Source: Bacteroidales bacterium
GTDB lineage: Bacteria > Bacteroidota > Bacteroidia > Bacteroidales > JAIOZK01
Direction of reading: 5' to 3'
Length of the DNA stretch: 54,792 nt
NCBI GenBank assembly: GCA_021738625.1
Contig: JAIPBS010000028.1
Span: 1-54,792 of the forward strand
Position 1 is the first letter of the stretch. Every line of letters starts with the position of its first letter. The notes under the pieces are model-generated. The model had not been told where the DNA came from. It did not search any database and saw only the letters and a program-made list of their open reading frames with translations. The position numbers and the translations under genes were made by a program. This document shows positions 16,990-54,619 of the stretch, in pieces.

Positions 16990-17175
16990 ATGGAAGGTTT
17001 GGATTATATCACAAATGAAAAAGGCGAAAAGAAAGCTCTTGTCATTAATCTTGATAAATATGGCGAATATATTGAGGATATTGAAGATATGCTTGTTGCT
17101 TTGGACAGGAAAAATGAACCAAGAGTATCATTTGAGGACGTTGAAGCCAGGTATCAGAAAAGAAAGAATACCTGA
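16990..17175 (+). CDS. antitoxin of a RelE/ParE-type module
   Basis: This 61-residue protein starts MEGLDYITNEKGEKKALVINLDKY. It resembles small antitoxins of the Phd/RelB class: a short beta strand with VINLDKYGEYIEDIEDM, then a charged helical tail that would wrap the toxin. It overlaps the toxin start by one base (TGATG), which couples their translation. A longer reading in another frame over the same DNA is a shadow. No palindromic operator is obvious upstream. The role is inferred from size and from the neighbouring toxin. Confidence 0.75.
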   Translation: MEGLDYITNEKGEKKALVINLDKYGEYIEDIEDMLVALDRKNEPRVSFEDVEARYQKRKNT

Positions 17176-17435
17176 TGTATAGAATTCTCTTCACCAAGTC
17201 AGCTGAAAAAGAGCTTTTTAAATTATCAAATCAAGAAATTGAACGAATTCTTAAAAAGATAAAATCATTATCCACAAACCCAAAACCTTCAGACGCCATA
17301 AAGCTCAAGGGTAAAATAGACCTTTGGAGAATAAGATCAGGAAAATATCGTATTGTTTACTCAATTATTAAAAAGAACCTTATTATTGAGATCGTTAGAA
17401 TCAGGCATCGTAAAGAGTCCTACCGAAATCTTTAA
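17175..17435 (+). CDS. RelE/ParE-family toxin
   Basis: The 86-residue protein has the RelE fold pattern: MYRILFTKSAEKELFKL at the start, the helix IERILKKIKSL, then KLKGKIDLWRIRSGKYRIVYSI with the conserved GxYR-I-VY core, and EIVRIRHRKESYRNL at the end. The terminal RIRHRKE...Y is the usual catalytic surface of RelE-type mRNA interferases. No frameshift is visible, so the module looks intact. It stands between a VapC relic and a repeat-rich intergenic region, a typical accessory site. Confidence 0.9.
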   Translation: MYRILFTKSAEKELFKLSNQEIERILKKIKSLSTNPKPSDAIKLKGKIDLWRIRSGKYRIVYSIIKKNLIIEIVRIRHRKESYRNL

Positions 17436-19590: not shown

Positions 19591-20277
19591 TCAAACAAAC
19601 AAAAGACCTCCCCCGTCAAACAAAGGCCCGTCATACAATTCGATGATTTGAAAGCCCGCTTCCGAAACAAATTTTCTGATTTTATCTCCTTCCGAAAAAT
19701 GATGCAGACTTCCGGTAACAAAAAGCTTGTTTTCCTCAACACCGCAACATCCTCCAATGAATCCGTGTTTTTGTCCCGGAAGAATGATCTCATCGGGTGT
19801 TACACATAAAACATCCAAACCATACCTGAGTATGGTTTTGTGGATTCCCTCATCGGAAGTGATAAATTTTTTGTTTCCCAGGGGAGCAATATTACACCTG
19901 GCATAACCCTGGTTTACGTGGATCAGTTCGGCGTCCGCTGCAAACTCAGTAATTCCTGAATCGGTATACCGGAAATTATGGATCAAAAGATCATCCGAAA
20001 AAACTGCATTGTATAAGGCAGTTCCGGGATATCTGGCACCAACGGGCATTTCGCCTTCTATAAAATCAATGTGATGTTTTTGCAATGCTTTTTTAAAATA
20101 TTCAGGCAGGTTGGGCGCCACAATCAGCCTGTCCATGATTTTACAAAAGAAAATGTCGGGATGGCCGGAAATGGATTCATAAACGATATTCTCTGTTTTC
20201 AGAAAAACGCAATTTGAAAATTTTCCGAGTTCAGTTTTTGCCTCATCCGGGATCCGTTGATCTGCGATAGCGATCAT
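19591..20277 (-). CDS. DUF6873 family protein (GME-fold-like)
   Basis: The 228-residue cytoplasmic protein shows HPDIFFCKI, GYARCNIAPLG, SDEGIHKTI, HGFIGGCCGV and LFDGGGLLFV. These repeated short motifs with Asp/Glu, His and Cys resemble the pentein, or guanidine-modifying-enzyme, fold. I recall the family as DUF6873, with no established reaction. Many members sit in ordinary operons in Firmicutes and Bacteroidota. It starts 20 nt after the TlpA-like lipoprotein on the same strand, so they may share a transcript. No substrate can be named. Confidence 0.7.
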   Translation of the reverse strand: MIAIADQRIPDEAKTELGKFSNCVFLKTENIVYESISGHPDIFFCKIMDRLIVAPNLPEYFKKALQKHHIDFIEGEMPVGARYPGTALYNAVFSDDLLIHNFRYTDSGITEFAADAELIHVNQGYARCNIAPLGNKKFITSDEGIHKTILRYGLDVLCVTPDEIILPGQKHGFIGGCCGVEENKLFVTGSLHHFSEGDKIRKFVSEAGFQIIELYDGPLFDGGGLLFV

Positions 20278-46299: not shown

Positions 46300-47631
46300 G
46301 TGATAAAACGACCGGACAGGATCATTCTCCTTACGCTAATAGCTGTTGTTACCATATTTGCCTACAGTTGTAAAAAAGAACCCGATGAAGTAGGTGCAAG
46401 TATCATTCCCGAAAGCAATATCCTTAAACTCGGATTTACCGACACGGCAAGCCTGAAAGCCTATTCCCGGCTGGTGGATTCGGTCAGGTCGGATGAAACC
46501 ATAGTGAACCTGCTGGGTAGCTATACCGACCCGGTTTTCGGACGGGTGACCACCTCCTTCTATTCCCAGTTCAGGCTGCCGGTAACCAATTACGATTTCG
46601 GCAGCAACCCCCAACCCGATTCCCTTATTCTTTCTATGAAATATGCAGGCCACCTTGGAGACACCAACTTCCCGCAAAGCATCCATGTGTATGAGATGAG
46701 CCAGCCCATCTTTCGCGACAGCGTTTATTTTTCAAACCAAAGCCTGCCCAACTACGGAACCGACTTTGCCAACTTTAGCTTTTACCCCAGGCCAAGAACA
46801 AGCCTGATCACCGCAGATGACACCCTGGCGCCCCAGATTCGGATCAACCTTAGCAAATATAGTTTTGAACTGGCCAATAAGATTTTGAACGCCGATTCAA
46901 TTGCCATGTCCGACAATGAGCAATTCCTGAAATATTTTCATGGACTTTATATAGAGGCCGAGCCCAATCCCAACCAGGCATCCATTTTATATCTGGATAT
47001 GATGAATGTGCTGTCGAACCTTACCCTATATTACCACAACGACTCTTCAGACTCGCTTTACCTGGTCCTGAATGTAAATGAGAATGCTGCTCGCTTCGGC
47101 CATTTCAATCATCACGGCTACCAACAAGCCGATCAGGATTTTAAAAACCAGGTGCTCTTTAATGATACCAGCCTGGGCAAACAGCAACTTTACCTGCAAA
47201 CCCTGGGCGGAGTGGTCAGCACAATAGAAATCCCCCATATCTCCAACTGGTTTGAAAACCAGCAGAAAGTGCTGGTGAATGAAGCCCGCCTGATTATGAC
47301 ACCAAATGAAAATCAAAGCGATCTTTATACAAAACCTTCATCGCTCTCATTGCTGAAAATAACTGAAGAGGGCAATTCCGAGTTCCTTGAAGACCAGTTC
47401 GAGGGAGAGGGATATTTTGGCGGCACCTACGACTCTGCCAGCAATTCCTATTATTTCAGGATCACCAAATACGTTCAGGACCTGATGATGGGCAGACAGG
47501 AAGACCATGGGCTGTCACTTTATATTTCGGGAGTTTCCGTCAGGGCCAACCGCCTGTTGCTATACGGCACAGAGCCGGCGGATACCAGCAAACGGCTCAG
47601 GCTTGAATTGAGATATACCCTGGTGGAGTGA
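46300..47631 (+). CDS. DUF4270 lipoprotein
   Basis: The 443-residue protein has a lipoprotein signal with Cys at about 24 (FAYSCKKEPDEVG) and the DUF4270 opening GASIIPESN. The body is beta-rich with many Ser/Asn/Tyr residues. It starts with GTG, which is the only start that gives the signal peptide. The family is restricted mainly to Bacteroidota and its job is unknown. Its place between the glycogen-synthase-like gene and glmS is conserved in the phylum, which suggests a link to cell-envelope sugar metabolism. It is 27 nt from the upstream gene, so co-transcription is likely. Confidence 0.88.
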   Translation: MIKRPDRIILLTLIAVVTIFAYSCKKEPDEVGASIIPESNILKLGFTDTASLKAYSRLVDSVRSDETIVNLLGSYTDPVFGRVTTSFYSQFRLPVTNYDFGSNPQPDSLILSMKYAGHLGDTNFPQSIHVYEMSQPIFRDSVYFSNQSLPNYGTDFANFSFYPRPRTSLITADDTLAPQIRINLSKYSFELANKILNADSIAMSDNEQFLKYFHGLYIEAEPNPNQASILYLDMMNVLSNLTLYYHNDSSDSLYLVLNVNENAARFGHFNHHGYQQADQDFKNQVLFNDTSLGKQQLYLQTLGGVVSTIEIPHISNWFENQQKVLVNEARLIMTPNENQSDLYTKPSSLSLLKITEEGNSEFLEDQFEGEGYFGGTYDSASNSYYFRITKYVQDLMMGRQEDHGLSLYISGVSVRANRLLLYGTEPADTSKRLRLELRYTLVE

Positions 47632-47677
47632 TCATTAACTGAAAACAGATTTATGATTTTAATAACATTGCACCCGA

Positions 47678-47708
47678 TTGGTTTAAGCATCTTAATTGGC
47701 TATCTTTG
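47678..47708 (+). promoter_or_regulatory. glmS promoter (-33 and -7 boxes)
   Basis: TTGG (47678-47681) and TATCTTTG (47701-47708) are separated by 19 nt, a good Bacteroidota sigma-A promoter. The glmS ATG follows 27 nt after the -7 box. No glmS ribozyme-like structure is visible in this short leader. Confidence 0.7.
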
Positions 47709-47735
47709 TTTCATTAAATTAAAACAATCTCTCCT

Positions 47736-49574
47736 ATGTGTGGAATAGTTGGATATTTGGGACAGAAAGAAGCTTACCCCATCCTGATCAAAGGACTTCA
47801 CAGGCTTGAATACAGGGGTTACGACAGCGCCGGTATCGCACTGATCAACGGCGGTTTGAATGTGTATAAACGCAAAGGCAAAGTGGCCGAACTGGAAGCC
47901 TTTGTAAAAGGCAAAGACATCTCAGGTCCTATCGGTATTGCGCATACCCGCTGGGCCACCCACGGGGAACCGACCGATGAGAATGCCCACCCGCATATGT
48001 CACAATCAAAAGAGCTCTCACTCATCCACAACGGCATCATCGAAAATTATGATGTTTTGCGCAATGAGCTGATCAACCGCGGCTATACCTTCAACAGCCA
48101 TACCGATACGGAAGTATTGGTTTATCTTATTGAAGACATTCAGAAGAATGAAGGCGTGGAGCTAAGCGAGGCGGTTCGCATAGCGCTCAACCAGGTGATC
48201 GGGGCCTATGCCATCGTGATCCTGTCCAAAAACGATCCGGATACCCTCATCGCCGCCAAGAAAGGCAGCCCGCTGGTGATCGGTATAGGAGAAGATGAGT
48301 TTTTCATTGCTTCCGACGCCACACCCATAGTAGAATACACCAAAGAGGTGGTTTACCTGAATGATGAAGAAATGGCTGTGATCCGTAGGAACAACGACCT
48401 CCGTATCAAAACCATCAAAAACCAGGACAAAACCCCCTACATTCAAACCCTGGAGATGAACCTGAGCCAACTTGAAAAAGGCGGCTTCGAGCACTTCATG
48501 CTGAAAGAAATCTACGAACAGCCCCGCAGCATCATGGATAGCATGCGCGGTCGTTTGAATGCCAAAAAAGGCATTGTATCTTTGGGCGGTATCATCGACT
48601 ATGAACAAAAAATGGTGGCCGCCAACCGCATCATCATCATTGCCTGCGGCACCTCATGGCATGCCGGACTGGTGGGCGAATACCTGTTCGAGGATTTGGC
48701 CCGCACCCCCGTGGAGGTGGAATATGCCTCAGAGTTTCGCTACCGAAATCCGGTGATCTACGAAAACGACGTGGTGATCGCCATATCCCAGTCGGGAGAA
48801 ACCGCCGACACCCTGGCCGCCATCGAGCTGGCCAGGTCGAAAGGCGCCACCATACTGGGCATCTGTAATGTGGTAGGCTCTTCCATTGCCCGGGCCACCG
48901 ACGCCGGCAGCTATACCCATGCCGGACCCGAGATCGGGGTGGCTTCCACCAAAGCCTTCACCGCACAGGTGACCGTGCTCACCCTGATGGCCCTGCGCAT
49001 CGCACAGCTGAAAGGTACGCTTTCCAAATCACGCTTCCAGCAAATCCTATTTGAGCTGGAAAGCATCCCTGAAAAAGTGGAAAAAACATTGAAGGTGAGC
49101 AAACGGGTGATCACCATTGCAGAAGAGTTCTGCCAGGTGAGAAACTTTCTTTACCTGGGACGCGGATACAATTTCCCGGTAGCACTGGAAGGCGCACTGA
49201 AACTCAAAGAAATTTCTTATATCCACGCCGAAGGATACCCGGCAGCTGAAATGAAACATGGTCCCATCGCCCTGATCGATGAGGAAATGCCGGTGGTGTT
49301 TATCGCCCCCCTCAAAGGCGTGTATGAAAAGGTGATCAGCAACATACAGGAAGTAAAAGCCCGTAGAGGCAAAGTGATCGCCATCGTAACCGAAGGAGAC
49401 CATGCCGTTAGTGAAATGGCCGACTACACCATCGAGATCCCCGAAACCGAGGAAATGCTCGTTCCCCTGCTGGCCACCATCCCCCTGCAAAAACTAAGCT
49501 ACCACATCGCCCTTATGCGCGGCTGCAACGTCGACCAGCCGAGGAATCTGGCGAAGTCGGTGACGGTGGAGTGA
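47736..49574 (+). CDS. glmS: glutamine-fructose-6-phosphate aminotransferase (isomerising)
   Basis: GlmS makes glucosamine-6-phosphate, the first step of amino-sugar synthesis for peptidoglycan and LPS. The N-terminal glutaminase domain begins MCGIVGYLGQ, with Cys2 as nucleophile after Met removal, followed by HTRWATHGEPTDENAHPH. Two SIS isomerase domains carry ACGTSWHAGLV, SQSGETADTLAA and AEMKHGPIALID. The end LAKSVTVE is the standard C-terminus. The length of 612 fits. Heptamer repeats start at its stop codon. Confidence 0.97.
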   Translation: MCGIVGYLGQKEAYPILIKGLHRLEYRGYDSAGIALINGGLNVYKRKGKVAELEAFVKGKDISGPIGIAHTRWATHGEPTDENAHPHMSQSKELSLIHNGIIENYDVLRNELINRGYTFNSHTDTEVLVYLIEDIQKNEGVELSEAVRIALNQVIGAYAIVILSKNDPDTLIAAKKGSPLVIGIGEDEFFIASDATPIVEYTKEVVYLNDEEMAVIRRNNDLRIKTIKNQDKTPYIQTLEMNLSQLEKGGFEHFMLKEIYEQPRSIMDSMRGRLNAKKGIVSLGGIIDYEQKMVAANRIIIIACGTSWHAGLVGEYLFEDLARTPVEVEYASEFRYRNPVIYENDVVIAISQSGETADTLAAIELARSKGATILGICNVVGSSIARATDAGSYTHAGPEIGVASTKAFTAQVTVLTLMALRIAQLKGTLSKSRFQQILFELESIPEKVEKTLKVSKRVITIAEEFCQVRNFLYLGRGYNFPVALEGALKLKEISYIHAEGYPAAEMKHGPIALIDEEMPVVFIAPLKGVYEKVISNIQEVKARRGKVIAIVTEGDHAVSEMADYTIEIPETEEMLVPLLATIPLQKLSYHIALMRGCNVDQPRNLAKSVTVE

Positions 49575-49620
49575 GTAGGGAGTAAGGAGTATGGAGTAAG
49601 GAGTAGGAGTAGGAAGGAGT
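49568..49620. repeat. heptamer array (GAGTAAG)n, left of the four-helix gene
   Basis: Units of 7 bp (one of 6) run GGAGTGA, GTAGGGA, GTAAGGA, GTATGGA, GTAAGGA, GTAGGA, GTAGGAA. The array overlaps the glmS stop. Bases 49573-49596 are the exact reverse complement of 50124-50147, a 24-bp perfect inverted repeat. Confidence 0.9.
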
Positions 49621-49708
49621 TAACAGATGGGTTATTTAGAATGATATTACTTCTTATGATCGAAATCAACAACTTAATTTAATAACTTCATATAAAGGAT
49701 TCAAAGAT

Positions 49709-50056
49709 TTGATCGTTTTTCAAAAGTCTTACGATCTGGCTATAAGAATACACAAGATTACAAGAAAATATCCTTCAGAAGAAAAGTATCTTCTGGTAGA
49801 TCAGATTATCAGATCTTCTCGATCAGTACCAGCCAATATAGCTGAGGCATGGGCCAAGCGTTTGTATACCAAGGCCTTTATTAGTAAATTATCAGATGCT
49901 CTGGGGGAGGAACTGGAAACTGAAGTATGGCTCGAAATGTCGAAAGACCATCAATACATCACTCCAGATATTTATGAAGACCTATTTATCGAATGTGACT
50001 CAATCCGTAAAATGCTGATTTCCATGATGAACAATCCGGGCAAGTTTTGCAGGTAA
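49709..50056 (+). CDS. four-helix-bundle protein (S23 / rRNA-intervening-sequence type)
   Basis: The 115 residues match the four-helix-bundle family first seen in 23S rRNA intervening sequences and related to the Avd protein of diversity-generating retroelements. The match shows in LIVFQKSYDLAIRIHKIT, LVDQIIRSSRSVPANIAEAW, LSDALGEELETEVWL and IRKMLISM. The start is TTG in this reading; upstream codons (SYKGFKD) also fit the family, so translation may begin earlier at a non-ATG codon. The gene is enclosed by inverted heptamer arrays and interrupts the DNA between glmS and the barrel gene. No rRNA or reverse transcriptase is near. Its function is not known. Confidence 0.85.
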   Translation: MIVFQKSYDLAIRIHKITRKYPSEEKYLLVDQIIRSSRSVPANIAEAWAKRLYTKAFISKLSDALGEELETEVWLEMSKDHQYITPDIYEDLFIECDSIRKMLISMMNNPGKFCR

Positions 50057-50112
50057 ATGTTGAAACTTCAATGTCAAAACTGGAACAAGTGAGTTAATTC
50101 CCCATAGAATAA

Positions 50113-50166
50113 ATCTCTACCCTCTCCATACTCCTTACTCCCTACTCCTTACTCCATACTTACTCC
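50113..50166. repeat. heptamer array, inverted, right of the four-helix gene
   Basis: Seven-base units run on the opposite strand to the left array: TCTCTAC, CCTCTCC, ATACTCC, TTACTCC, CTACTCC, TTACTCC, ATACT, TACTCC. Bases 50124-50147 complement 49573-49596 perfectly. It ends at the stop of the barrel gene. Confidence 0.9.
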
Positions 50167-51873
50167 TCAAAACCCCATCCCAAACCCTACCTTCACCGTG
50201 CTTGTCTTGCCACGATAAAAAGCGGGTGTACGTTTGTCAGTGGTGGGGCCGGTGATGTCCGATTGGCGGAAATTGAAAAAGAAGAATGTGTTGTAAAAAA
50301 TCTCGTAGGAAGCATTGAATGCCAGGCTTTGCATTTCCCATATGATGTTTTCGAGTATGGGCAGCTTGTGCAGGTCGCAATCCGGATCGTTGGCGCAATC
50401 GGCGTAGCTGAAGTCGTCGCCGTGTTGTGCAAAGGTCCAGCTCAGATCGAGGCGCAGCCCCCTGATGGGTTTGTAGCCCAGTGCCAGGTATAACTCCCGT
50501 GAATTATCCTGTAGGTAATGACCCATATTGTAGAGGTTGGAAGCATAGGTCTGGGTGACGATCTTGTGTTGGAACACAAGCGGATTGGTATGCGAGATCT
50601 CGGCGGTCAGGCTGAGGTTTTGAAACGGAAAATCGCTCAGCCGGCCACCCGCTTTGTAGCTGAATAAATTGAATTCGTTCTGTTCCCGAAAATGCCGGAT
50701 GGACAGGTCATCCATGAAGAGTGTAAAATACAGGTGGAGGTGTTTGATATTGCGTGAACTGAAATTGAAATACAACTGGGAATTCTGCCCCGACTCCCCG
50801 CCGGCATAAGTAGCGTTCAGGGTGTGATCGACGGATTTATAAAAGAGGAAAGGAACCAGGTAGGCTGCATGCGGTCCGCCCAGATCGCTGTATACCGTTG
50901 AATTCCCGAAAGAGAAATTGAAATTCTTAAAAGGGTAAAAAGTAAACATATTGGCCGCCATGTATTTGGGATAAAAAACCGCGCGGTAGGTTCCGTTGGT
51001 CCAGTAGGAGGCATTGCTGTCGATCACCTGCGACACCAGCCAGCCGTGGTAATAATTGAACTCGAACCAGCGGACCGGTTTCAGTTTAAGTTTGATCATG
51101 GCGAAGGAAGGTGCCCGGCCGCTTTGTATGTTGGCGCCGTTGTAGCCCGACCCCCATTGCACATGGTCTTTCACCAAACCCACCGAACCCCATTTCCAGG
51201 AGAAGTTGATCCCGCCCCTGGCCTCGCTAAAGTCGATGCCTTCTTCACCGTAGTTCTTAAAAGGAACGCCGGGCGTCTGCACAAAATAATCCGGGGAGAT
51301 CATGATGCGGCTCATGTTGTGGTCGCGCACAGAAGTATAGAAACCGATGTTTTTGCCGATGTAGCCAAAAAAGGAAGCTCCTCCATATGTATGGACGAGG
51401 TCCCCGTTCTGATTGGTCGCATAGGAAGCCCCGTAAATCACTTGCAGGGCTGCCCTAAAAACACTGTCCTTGTAAAATAAACCCGGGGGGTTCAGGGCCG
51501 TTGCAAATTGATCGCTTTGCTTCAGCAGATCCGTCTTTTCCTTCCATTCAACCGGTCCGGCCTTCTCCAATGAATATGCCTGCAGGTAAAACGACAAATC
51601 CTCCTGCTGTCTTTTATTCAAACCCACACTTTTCTCTTCCTCCATACCCCCTACTCCATACTTCCTATTGTATTCCTCAACTTCCTGCAGCTTCTCATAG
51701 ATCATATTCCTGCTATACGGCTTCACCACATCGTTCAACTCGACGACTTTCAGGTTGGCCATTTCATCCAAAAAATTATAAATGCCTTCATGGCTGATGT
51801 GCTCGTACACCACCTGGGTTTTGCCCGTAAAGGTACCGAGCAATATGAGGGTTATGAGGATTGTTTTTTTCAT
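50167..51873 (-). CDS. outer-membrane beta-barrel protein, Wzi/capsule-assembly-like
   Basis: The 568-residue precursor has a signal peptide (about 1-19). Strands alternate through the mature part with many aromatic residues (GGINFSWKWGSVGLVKDHVQW, GYIGKNIGFYTSV), and the last residue is Phe, as usual for outer-membrane barrels. The general pattern resembles the capsule-assembly Wzi-like barrels of Bacteroidota. Residues 69-81 (NRKYGVGGMEEE region) are encoded by a heptamer repeat like those flanking the four-helix gene, which looks like an insertion in a tolerant loop. Family call is tentative; outer-membrane location is likely. Confidence 0.7.
   Translation of the reverse strand: MKKTILITLILLGTFTGKTQVVYEHISHEGIYNFLDEMANLKVVELNDVVKPYSRNMIYEKLQEVEEYNRKYGVGGMEEEKSVGLNKRQQEDLSFYLQAYSLEKAGPVEWKEKTDLLKQSDQFATALNPPGLFYKDSVFRAALQVIYGASYATNQNGDLVHTYGGASFFGYIGKNIGFYTSVRDHNMSRIMISPDYFVQTPGVPFKNYGEEGIDFSEARGGINFSWKWGSVGLVKDHVQWGSGYNGANIQSGRAPSFAMIKLKLKPVRWFEFNYYHGWLVSQVIDSNASYWTNGTYRAVFYPKYMAANMFTFYPFKNFNFSFGNSTVYSDLGGPHAAYLVPFLFYKSVDHTLNATYAGGESGQNSQLYFNFSSRNIKHLHLYFTLFMDDLSIRHFREQNEFNLFSYKAGGRLSDFPFQNLSLTAEISHTNPLVFQHKIVTQTYASNLYNMGHYLQDNSRELYLALGYKPIRGLRLDLSWTFAQHGDDFSYADCANDPDCDLHKLPILENIIWEMQSLAFNASYEIFYNTFFFFNFRQSDITGPTTDKRTPAFYRGKTSTVKVGFGMGF
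51636..51668. repeat. heptamer array inside the barrel gene
   Basis: On the plus strand the units read TTCCTCC, ATACCCC, CTACTCC, ATACTTC, the same unit family as the arrays at 49568 and 50113. The frame is kept across it. Confidence 0.65.
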
Positions 51874-51936
51874 TGATATGGAAATTTGGGGGATTAGTGA
51901 TCATTTCAATAGCTTACTGGGAATTCCAGGTATACC

Positions 51937-52197
51937 TCAAATATAATGAAATCGCAATGAAATCACTTTAATTCGGTCGTTTTTAACTGTATAAACCAAA
52001 CGGTGTTCCTCGGTAATCCTCCGGCTCCAGTAACCCTTTAGTTCATGTTTCAATGGCTCGGGTTTTCCTATCCCTGAGAAAGGTGTTTTGCTTATGCTGT
52101 TGAGCAGTTTCGTTATCCGCTTCTGAATGGTTTTATTGCCTGATTTCTTCCAAAAATCCAAATCCTCCTGGGCTTTATCGAGAAAATCTATTTCCAC
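51937..52197 (-). CDS. yoeB: Txe/YoeB-family toxin
   Basis: The 86 residues match YoeB mRNA interferases: DKAQEDLDFWKKSGNKTIQKRI, then GKPEPLKHELKGYWSRRITEEHRLVY with the catalytic Glu/Arg core, and a C-terminal RFHYI, where the terminal His-Tyr are catalytic in YoeB. It overlaps the upstream antitoxin by 10 nt. No frameshift is visible, so this module appears intact, in contrast to its relative at 53785-54053. Confidence 0.93.
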   Translation of the reverse strand: MEIDFLDKAQEDLDFWKKSGNKTIQKRITKLLNSISKTPFSGIGKPEPLKHELKGYWSRRITEEHRLVYTVKNDRIKVISLRFHYI

Positions 52198-52412
52198 AAT
52201 TCAGATGTATCGATGGTTTTTCCTTTCTCCCCTTTTTTAACCTGGGAAACACCATGCATCAATCTATCCCGGTTTGCTTTGGTTGACAATAAATACTCCG
52301 TTTCATCTAAAAAGCGGATAGAACCTTTGTCATCTGCTTTTGATAACACTTTCAGCATTTCAAGAATGCTTTTCCCAATTTTTGTTTTTTCATTTATGAT
52401 GATTGTAGCCAT
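52188..52412 (-). CDS. antitoxin partner of the YoeB-type toxin
   Basis: The 74-residue protein precedes and overlaps the toxin. It begins MATIIINEKTKIGKSILEMLKVL and has a C-terminal charged tail ending DTSELWK, typical of an unstructured toxin-wrapping part. It does not look like the usual YefM/Phd antitoxin but resembles short Bacteroidota antitoxins found with YoeB. The promoter region in front resembles that of the antitoxin at 54046-54267. Confidence 0.8.
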   Translation of the reverse strand: MATIIINEKTKIGKSILEMLKVLSKADDKGSIRFLDETEYLLSTKANRDRLMHGVSQVKKGEKGKTIDTSELWK

Positions 52413-52440
52413 AATGTCTTTTTCAAAATGAACGTAACAT

Positions 52441-52448
52441 CAAATGTA
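52441..52448 (-). promoter_or_regulatory. promoter/operator of the YoeB module
   Basis: On the minus strand TACATTTG fits TAnnTTTG, 28 nt before the antitoxin ATG. It overlaps the palindrome ATGTACAT. The same sequence block (ATCAAATGTACATATTTTT on the plus strand) stands before the second module at 54303-54321, so it may be a shared autoregulatory operator. Confidence 0.5.
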
Positions 52449-52470
52449 CATATTTTTGGACAATGATGAA

Positions 52471-52519
52471 AAGATTTGAGCGGTGAGAGGTGAGATTTGA
52501 GAGGTGAGAGGTGAGTAAG
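52471..52519. repeat. heptamer array (GAGAGGT)n upstream of the YoeB module
   Basis: Seven units: AAGATTT, GAGCGGT, GAGAGGT, GAGATTT, GAGAGGT, GAGAGGT, GAGTAAG. The array at 54344-54392 has nearly the same unit order, so the two are copies of one ancestral block. Confidence 0.85.
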
Positions 52520-54267: not shown

Positions 54268-54305
54268 TGTTATCGACTTTATTTGCTTCTGAATTAACGC
54301 AATAT

Positions 54306-54313
54306 CAAATGTA
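54306..54313 (-). promoter_or_regulatory. promoter/operator of the second YoeB module
   Basis: TACATTTG on the minus strand, 38 nt before the antitoxin ATG, overlaps ATGTACAT and lies in the sequence block shared with 52438-52456. Confidence 0.5.
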
Positions 54314-54343
54314 CATATTTTTTTGAAAAATAAAAAAAGAGAT

Positions 54344-54392
54344 AAGTTTTGAGCGGCGAGAGGTGAGTTTTGAGAGATGAGAGGTGAGTTGC
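54344..54392. repeat. heptamer array (GAGAGGT)n, second copy
   Basis: Seven units: AAGTTTT, GAGCGGC, GAGAGGT, GAGTTTT, GAGAGAT, GAGAGGT, GAGTTGC, matching 52471-52519 unit by unit. Confidence 0.85.
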
Positions 54393-54395
54393 TGA

Positions 54396-54468
54396 AAGTA
54401 CGACAGTACGAAAGTACGATAGTACGAGGGTACGAAGGTATGAGGGTGCGAAGGTGCGAAAGTACGAG
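54396..54468. repeat. octamer array (AGTACGAN)n
   Basis: About nine 8-bp units follow directly after the heptamer array: AGTACGAC, AGTACGAA, AGTACGAT, AGTACGAG, GGTACGAA, GGTATGAG, GGTGCGAA, GGTGCGAA, AGTACGAG. The step from period 7 to period 8 at one site is notable. Confidence 0.85.
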
Positions 54469-54619
54469 AAAAAGTGTGAATTATTTTCTTAGGTTCCATA
54501 TCTCCGGGTTCGATTGCATGTTAACGAGCATTGGCGATGATGCATTCACAAAAGGGCCGTTGAGTCAATTCATTAACAAATCATTAACTTTCTTTATCCA
54601 AGCGATTTATAAAATATAC

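Follow-up and report, generated by a model that had tools for sequence, protein, structure and literature searches.

A contig of 54,792 nucleotides from a Bacteroidales bacterium (assembly GCA_021738625.1, contig JAIPBS010000028.1), called here the window, carries between glmS and a convergent barrel gene a 588-bp unit in which a gene of the S23/IVP (intervening-sequence protein) four-helix-bundle family is enclosed by two inverted arrays of the heptamer GAGTAAG. This unit is one copy of a widespread family in which S23 genes are often repeat-armed. We consider it likely that the family is mobile and inserts at gene junctions; its predicted hairpin resembles that of the intervening sequences (IVS) of 23S rRNA. 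The evidence read directly from the sequences consists of the arms, their locus-specific matching, the fit of the units from stop to start codon, their co-directionality with the neighbouring genes, junctions with and without a unit, exchanged units, truncation, gene-less hairpins and broken genes. Most of the sampled S23 genes are thus placed in a defined element of gene junctions, including those of CRISPR-Cas operons.

The window is contig C46 of a 4.10-Mb draft genome, G000. Its unit occupies positions 49573..50160 (+ strand) from arm to arm, as delimited by array, inverted-pair and folding evidence, and the order is glmS, GAGTAAG array, S23/IVP frame, inverted GAGTAAG array and convergent barrel gene. 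The left arm (49573..49611, + strand) is a G-rich array of 5.7 GAGTAAG repeats, the first of which overlaps the glmS stop codon. The right arm (50124..50160, - strand), identified by repeat scan, reads CTTACTC on the + strand and is followed after 6 bp by the stop of the barrel gene. These borders bear out an earlier note on this DNA, which had described a compact unit of about 600 bp abutting both stops; the repeat scan and the protein profiles likewise confirmed its account of an S23 gene between oppositely oriented GAGTAAG arrays sharing a perfect 24-bp core. The two halves of this core, 49573-49596 and 50124-50147, are perfect reverse complements and form the sole 24-mer inverted pair spaced 300-800 bp within the window; a 400-kb sample of G000 contained no such pair. 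The sequence GAGTAAGGAGTAAG gave 8 overlapping matches with at most two mismatches, against 0.16 expected. Folding of the RNA from 49560 to 50180 predicted a long stem whose base lies at the glmS stop (-177.3 kcal/mol, z -5.06 over 20 shuffles). A search of 47600-52300 with Rfam found no rRNA, and the single match near the unit (17.8 bits for a cut-off of 40 bits) was far below threshold.

The protein is assigned to S23/IVP by two profiles, TIGR02436 (1.9e-32, 111.7 bits for a cut-off of 24) and PF05635 (5.6e-31, 107.4 bits for a cut-off of 33.8), and a profile built from ten S23 proteins of G000 matched the solved relatives 2gsc and 2rld. Matches to the Avd profiles DivGenRetAVD (NF033474; 2.8e-7, 30.8 bits) and bAvd (5.6e-7, 30.5 bits) remained under the curated cut-offs of 80 and 40, respectively. 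The stop-free frame extends from 49640 to 50056 on the + strand. It has no in-frame ATG, the nearest ones (49627, 49641 and 49656) being in other frames, and its first in-frame TTG is at 49709; the start has therefore been lost or a non-standard codon is used. Judged by its sequence, the window copy is probably decaying. TIGR02436 has 18 matches in G000, at about 16 loci. The family is large: one short motif has matches at no fewer than 586 places in genomes that encode a relative. A query with one S23 protein gave no match in phages.

Inverted arms recur at S23 genes far beyond the window. The left flank of each locus was scored against the reverse complement of its right flank, and a locus passed with a score above 26. 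Among 3000 random intervals drawn from 400 kb of G000, this value marks the 99% level and the highest score was 54. With 500-bp flanks, for which 143 of 153 loci were taken, 10 of 15 S23 loci passed in G000 itself, 34 of 53 in the same order and 59 of 75 across phyla. The count for the order is a merged one (the unmerged value, 35/55, counts L100 and L081 twice because each is in two pieces, and 4 short loci are omitted). The last set derives from the best 80 of 586 related loci, picked by a conserved motif, 5 of which were left out of the random/phyla test; it covers Bacteroidota, Pseudomonadota, Bacillota, Planctomycetota, Acidobacteriota, Cloacimonadota, Patescibacteria, Chloroflexota, archaea and others. 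Since the choice was motif-based and many loci come from metagenome bins, the value of 59/75 may be different for divergent members, and some of the organisms are possibly misnamed. With 400-bp flanks, 58 of 75 S23 genes across phyla passed, as compared with 9 of the 133 neighbouring genes from these loci; the corresponding values for the same order were 34 of 53 and 2 of 17, and 3.3% of 1197 random intervals passed.

The matching is specific to each locus. Among 16 loci of G000 (L018 merged into L012 and L016 into L015; right flank of L006 142 bp long), 10 exceeded the 99% random level and 9 exceeded every cross-locus pairing. In a threshold-free comparison, 83 of 143 units scored higher with their own partner flank than with any of 60 swapped ones, for 2.3 expected. 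The arm repeats of G000 vary from locus to locus: a period of 24/16 around AGGTTCAG, ATTGGCT, TTTAGAA, GTGTTCG, an 11-mer, AAGGGTAT, TGTATGAA, ATTGTTTC and GTTGGTA. Matching arms were also present at all six plasmid S23 genes fetched out of 42 plasmid records with a match, two of the six being near-identical copies, and at 16 of 21 S23 loci in six genomes, a sample that overlaps with the counted set because it was chosen via loci already counted. Flanking arrays accompany most S23 homologues of our samples; the refuting outcome named in the earlier note, array-less homologues in most genomes, did not occur in them.

The units share a common anatomy, with a median length of 506 bp. A period could be called in 136 of 182 arms and was 7 in 97, 8 in 28 and 9 in 7 of them. 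On the strand reading into the gene, the left arm holds more G than C in 81 of 91 units and more C than G in 7. Its median start is -1 bp relative to the upstream stop codon (within 15 bp in 49 of 71), and the median end of the right arm is 10 bp ahead of the next start (-10 to +30 bp in 46 of 75). Sixty-two of the 91 array units run with two co-directional neighbours and one runs against them; convergent sites such as that of the window copy account for 6. Stop codons are only slightly enriched in the sense strand of the arms (310 versus 271 in shuffled arms, largest shuffle 302), and we draw nothing from this. Furthermore, the one unsaturated orthologous S23 pair shows purifying selection (nonsynonymous divergence dN 0.032, synonymous divergence dS 0.409). 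Together with the orientation bias, this suggests that the S23 protein is made, via read-through of the host operon, and is important.

Plasmids provided junctions with and without S23. Between cas10 and cmr3 a unit is present in Picosynechococcus 7003, where 7002 has 12 bp (89.4% identical); between nrdB and nrdA, a unit in Nostoc edaphicum corresponds to 40 bp in Calothrix NIES-4105 (84.9% identical). The cas6|cas4 junction holds a unit in Anabaena sp. 90 and another insert in Dolichospermum 0315A, with flanks 98.7% identical; the same junction is 23 bp long in Nostoc 0302, and within 36 bp in Pseudanabaena ABRG5-3 it consists of a solo heptamer array.

Comparison with the congener G001 revealed a second series of differences. 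One syntenic stretch of the two genomes has six informative junctions side by side, the details of which were obtained by reading; one of the six is the lone GAGTAAG array of G000 described below. At one of them the unit is common to both genomes and its arms are altered. Another contains different units, with S23 proteins 34% identical and arms of TGTATGAA versus AGATTAC. Elsewhere a frameshifted S23 unit faces a gene-less inverted repeat of other sequence, an S23 remnant faces an intact gene, and a truncated S23 gene faces a gene-less ATTACAG hairpin, the inner ends of which match a full unit 2 kb away. A G000 fragment, L010, shares 96.4% identity across 166 bp with a G001 gene that has unrelated flanks; glmS is 76.6% identical between the two genomes. 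Seven of the 16 G000 loci (L005, L008, L010, L012/L018, L013, L015/L016 and L017) have a broken, truncated or start-less S23 gene. On a poorly resolved tree, the 11 G000 copies and the 10 from G001 do not form separate clusters (8 changes; 428 of 500 shuffles as low); the rows used, 134 of 153, are stop-free and at least 95 residues long. The idea of a small mobile unit, put forward in the earlier note, is thus well supported for the S23 family by its arms, the junctions with and without a unit, the truncated copy of the window unit and the gene-less hairpins; the window copy itself may have moved in this way.

The gene-less hairpins, the truncated copy and the lone arrays look, by their sequences, like relics of S23 units. 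In 400 kb of G000, 7 of 10 lone arrays carry the repeat of one of its S23 units, which beats 30 sets from other genomes. One lone GAGTAAG array, at about 82.87 kb of G000:C74, is joined to about 30 bp of the unique inner sequence of the window unit (61 bp, 93%). The proposal that lone arrays are scars of lost units finds partial support in these results. As for the window's six other arrays, one matched the S23 repeats of G000 marginally (24 versus 23) and five failed.

Several observations weigh against this interpretation. Mobility is deduced from comparisons and not from observed transposition. No clear target-site duplication was found at the three aligned plasmid junctions, where arrays blur the borders, and the Dolichospermum relative, which lacks S23, contains another insert, so that it is not strictly an empty site. 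The one congener compared has no array or S23 gene after glmS, but the gene downstream is a different one and hence there is no clean empty site for the window copy. The contig that carries the fragment L010 is 5.9 kb long and belongs to a draft assembly. Sixty of 143 units do not score above all swapped partners, and the S23 genes L011, L014, L107 and L109 have no arms; the pairs L011/L109 and L014/L107 have the same neighbours in both congeners and may be domesticated members. Arm-less S23 genes are equally co-directional (22 with their neighbours, none against), so the orientation bias is independent of the arms. Heptamers are also frequent in tandem stretches that arise by chance (40 of 62 called among 2785). 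In small samples, array density did not follow the number of S23 copies: G001 has 14 S23 matches and no array in 100 kb, and three sampled genomes free of S23 all have 1 to 3 arrays. Finally, G·U is not favoured over A·C among the arm mismatches of 91 units (105 versus 143). This argues against selection for an RNA stem in the sense transcript, and arm pairing is thus equally well explained at the DNA level.

Among the closest known systems are the IVS. The Coxiella 23S rRNA IVS has an S23p frame and terminal inverted repeats and is excised by RNase III; tandem heptamers GACAGAT precede S23p and vary in number among strains, and the S23p frame decays (PMC4990558). The same paper, from 2016, suggests that the RNA matters more than S23p and calls the function and origin of the element unclear. 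The S23 units resemble the IVS in that a hairpin bounded by terminal inverted repeats carries an S23/IVP frame in its loop, as is predicted for the window unit. They differ in lying at junctions of protein genes (here glmS and the barrel gene) instead of 23S rRNA helices, in bearing tandem-repeat arms on both sides with a locus-specific repeat, in being often present in several copies per genome and in having gene-less derivatives. The parts of an IVS are therefore present in another place: the anatomy agrees and the location does not. The simplest view would be that the rRNA IVS are S23 units that landed in rRNA. Our survey of open-access full text found no paper tying S23 genes to inverted tandem arrays outside rRNA.

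G-rich heptamers, GGGAATC in Xanthomonas and GGGGA(C/T)T in Nostoc, are described as largely intergenic in PMC4692102, which counts 70 convergent GGGAATC pairs in Xcc and 75 in Xac and reads them as G-quadruplex sites; 90% lie between the same genes in Xcc and Xac. This positional stability, as reported there, speaks against recent activity of the xanthomonad repeats. The main text of PMC4692102 mentions neither S23 nor four-helix proteins. The window repeat GAGTAAG differs from GGGAATC, whereas a Luteimonas unit shares it: the single S23 match of Luteimonas salinisoli is flanked by GGGAATC arms and lies between two genes that, by reading, are accB- and accC-like (L176/L259). This genome has 307 overlapping tandem GGGAATC matches (at most one mismatch) versus 0 for the reversed pattern, and the close pairs among an abridged list of the 307 comprise 10 convergent and 0 divergent ones. 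Luteimonas cucumeris has a unit in the same acc junction, with an S23 protein 54% identical and sister in the tree. Its arms are other ones in both flanks, so both arms appear to have changed together. L. cucumeris has 141 GGGAATC matches, though neither of its two S23 units bears GGGAATC arms. The TAACTGA heptamers of Beggiatoaceae, Cyanobacteria and Bacteroidetes are intergenic and patchy over phyla, with longer arrays in the latter two groups; they are mostly direct repeats before start codons, with one inverted case, and S23 is absent from the accessible text (PMC4679880). That system consists of one fixed heptamer, whereas the repeats of S23 units vary by locus.

Inverted arms and the coexistence of autonomous and gene-less copies are features of miniature inverted-repeat transposable elements (MITEs), of repetitive extragenic palindromes (REP) with their RAYT transposases, and of Foldback transposons, the ends of which are built of tandem subrepeats. 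The S23 units share terminal inverted repeats with MITEs. Unlike all three, they have no transposase and their repeat differs from unit to unit; the window unit, in particular, has no Y1 transposase gene as RAYT elements would. The Avd protein of diversity-generating retroelements is a related four-helix bundle that binds nucleic acid, under whose cut-offs the window protein falls; Avd is accompanied by a reverse transcriptase, whereas the window contig has no reverse transcriptase match.

How such a unit might spread can be outlined as follows. It would be transcribed by read-through from the 5' gene, and its two arms would pair, the base of the stem bringing the upstream stop and the downstream start together; joined in this way, they would allow the insertion to be tolerated. 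The S23 protein would be made from the loop and bind its own hairpin, an action on array-folded nucleic acid that the earlier note had also imagined, and host enzymes would complete the copying of the hairpin into another junction. Replication slippage could extend the 7-8-bp arrays, hairpin-templated copying could hold the two arms alike, and old copies, once their gene was lost, would survive as paired or lone arrays. In its boldest form, which we put forward tentatively and with somewhat more doubt than belief, this describes a transposable element of a new class, which encodes neither recombinase nor transposase nor reverse transcriptase and in which S23 promotes hairpin copying into operon gaps and both arms are rewritten into a private repeat; the ribosomal IVS, the orphan S23 genes and the xanthomonad G-rich heptamers would then be its forms or relics. 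If so, the rRNA IVS gain an origin, many lone heptamer arrays are explained as relics, and the question becomes how a protein of about 115 residues with no known nuclease achieves movement.

Other explanations share part of this evidence. The selected feature might be the double-stranded stem of the transcript, cut by RNase III, with S23 as a passenger. The Coxiella precedent (excision, heptamers and the weight given there to the RNA) and the predicted stem of the window unit point in this direction, as do the computed RNA duplexes between flanks, with a mean of -65.0 kcal/mol for own and -40.5 kcal/mol for swapped partners and the own partner best among 20 swaps in 50 of 91 units. However, the lack of a G·U excess does not agree with it, and both the purifying selection on the one S23 pair and the 62-to-1 orientation suit a need to express the protein; we regard this explanation as rather unlikely. 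S23 could, alternatively, be an ordinary immobile host gene, with arms that are hypervariable hairpins between genes and adjust translation or termination. Junctions with and without S23 between flanks 85-98.7% identical, different units at one junction, the seven G000 loci with defective genes and the failure of G000 copies to cluster apart from those of G001 on the poorly resolved tree are difficult to reconcile with a resident regulator. The array-less genes fixed in both congeners (L011/L109, L014/L107), the tight fit from stop to start codon and the C-rich downstream arms in the sense strand, as a termination signal could have, speak for it; we give it little credence.

The enzyme could also be supplied in trans. 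A Y1 transposase of the RAYT/IS200 type might recognise the hairpins as it does those of REP elements. Y1_Tnp (PF01797) occurs in 14 of 15 S23-bearing genomes, and gene-less convergent GGGAATC pairs resemble non-autonomous elements. The domain is also found in 4 of 6 S23-free genomes, however, and genome G002 has S23 and no Y1; the three Y1_Tnp matches of G000, on C76, C59 and C25 only, are each at least 3.9 kb from any S23 match, and retention of the S23 gene would be left unexplained. These facts make mobilisation by Y1 improbable. Copying by a resident reverse transcriptase, with S23 acting as Avd does in diversity-generating retroelements, strikes us as quite unlikely too: reverse transcriptase (PF00078) is present in 7 of 15 S23-bearing and 3 of 6 S23-free genomes, and G001 (14 S23 matches, 95% completeness) has no match, a distribution from which none seems to be needed. 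What favours it are the Avd-profile matches of the window protein, both under the cut-offs, and two PF00078 matches in G000, one of them about 0.9 kb from a weak S23/Avd-like frame. They lie on C55 and C25, and contig C46 has none. Our searches thus found no dedicated recombinase or reverse transcriptase for S23 units, and we retain as the probable reading a mobile family of repeat-armed S23 units.

The window unit is bordered on its 5' side by glmS (47736..49574, + strand; glutamine amidotransferase and SIS domains) and on its 3' side by the barrel gene (50167..51873, - strand), which has a weak Wzi-like match under the Pfam cut-off. A solitary member of the unit family had been claimed at 51636. 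The sequence there reduces to a repeat-like stretch of 26 bp (51640..51665, - strand) within the barrel coding sequence, with no S23 gene. That arrays are seeded from the end of the host gene was an idea prompted by glmS (GGAGTAA in the congener). A test on 46 units was weak (mean rank 0.55 to 0.62), ten sister junctions gave a negative result (own 6.30 versus swapped 6.39), and the idea was dropped.

Some further loci deserve mention. The plasmid S23 units L247, L249 and L248 lie within type I-D and III-B CRISPR-Cas operons (cas6|cas4 or cas10|cmr3). The cas6|cas4 insert of Dolichospermum UHCC 0315A (L253, about 1315-1565), which ends in GTAGGTTGGGTT/AACCCAACCTAC, is unrelated to the S23 unit, and the junction is thus a shared insertion spot. 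Two Calothrix brevissima plasmids carry an S23 unit in a 3.6-kb block that is 97.5% identical and lies beside an integrase gene (L244/L245); the block as a whole, not the unit alone, is common to both. Locus L054 on G000:C25 combines a weak S23/Avd-like frame (194154-194462, 27.5 bits, outside the 18 TIGR02436 matches) with a reverse transcriptase match at 195407-196099, and is possibly a diversity-generating retroelement. At L056, two arrays (17164-17253 and 19600-19668), which belong to the same 11-mer/22-mer family as S23 unit L007, are 2.4 kb apart. The pair was considered as a unit with a different cargo and set aside; by reading, its arrays apparently point outward. In the window, 52435-52515 and 54296-54390 are similar upstream regions (caaatgtacatattttt ... 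gagcggtgagaggtgag) ending in TGAGAGG arrays, which adjoin YoeB-like and AbiE-like toxin-antitoxin genes; by reading, the S23 fragment L010 and its G001 relative L095 have a similar repeat. An octamer array around GTACGAAA, with no S23 gene, follows at 54394-54469.

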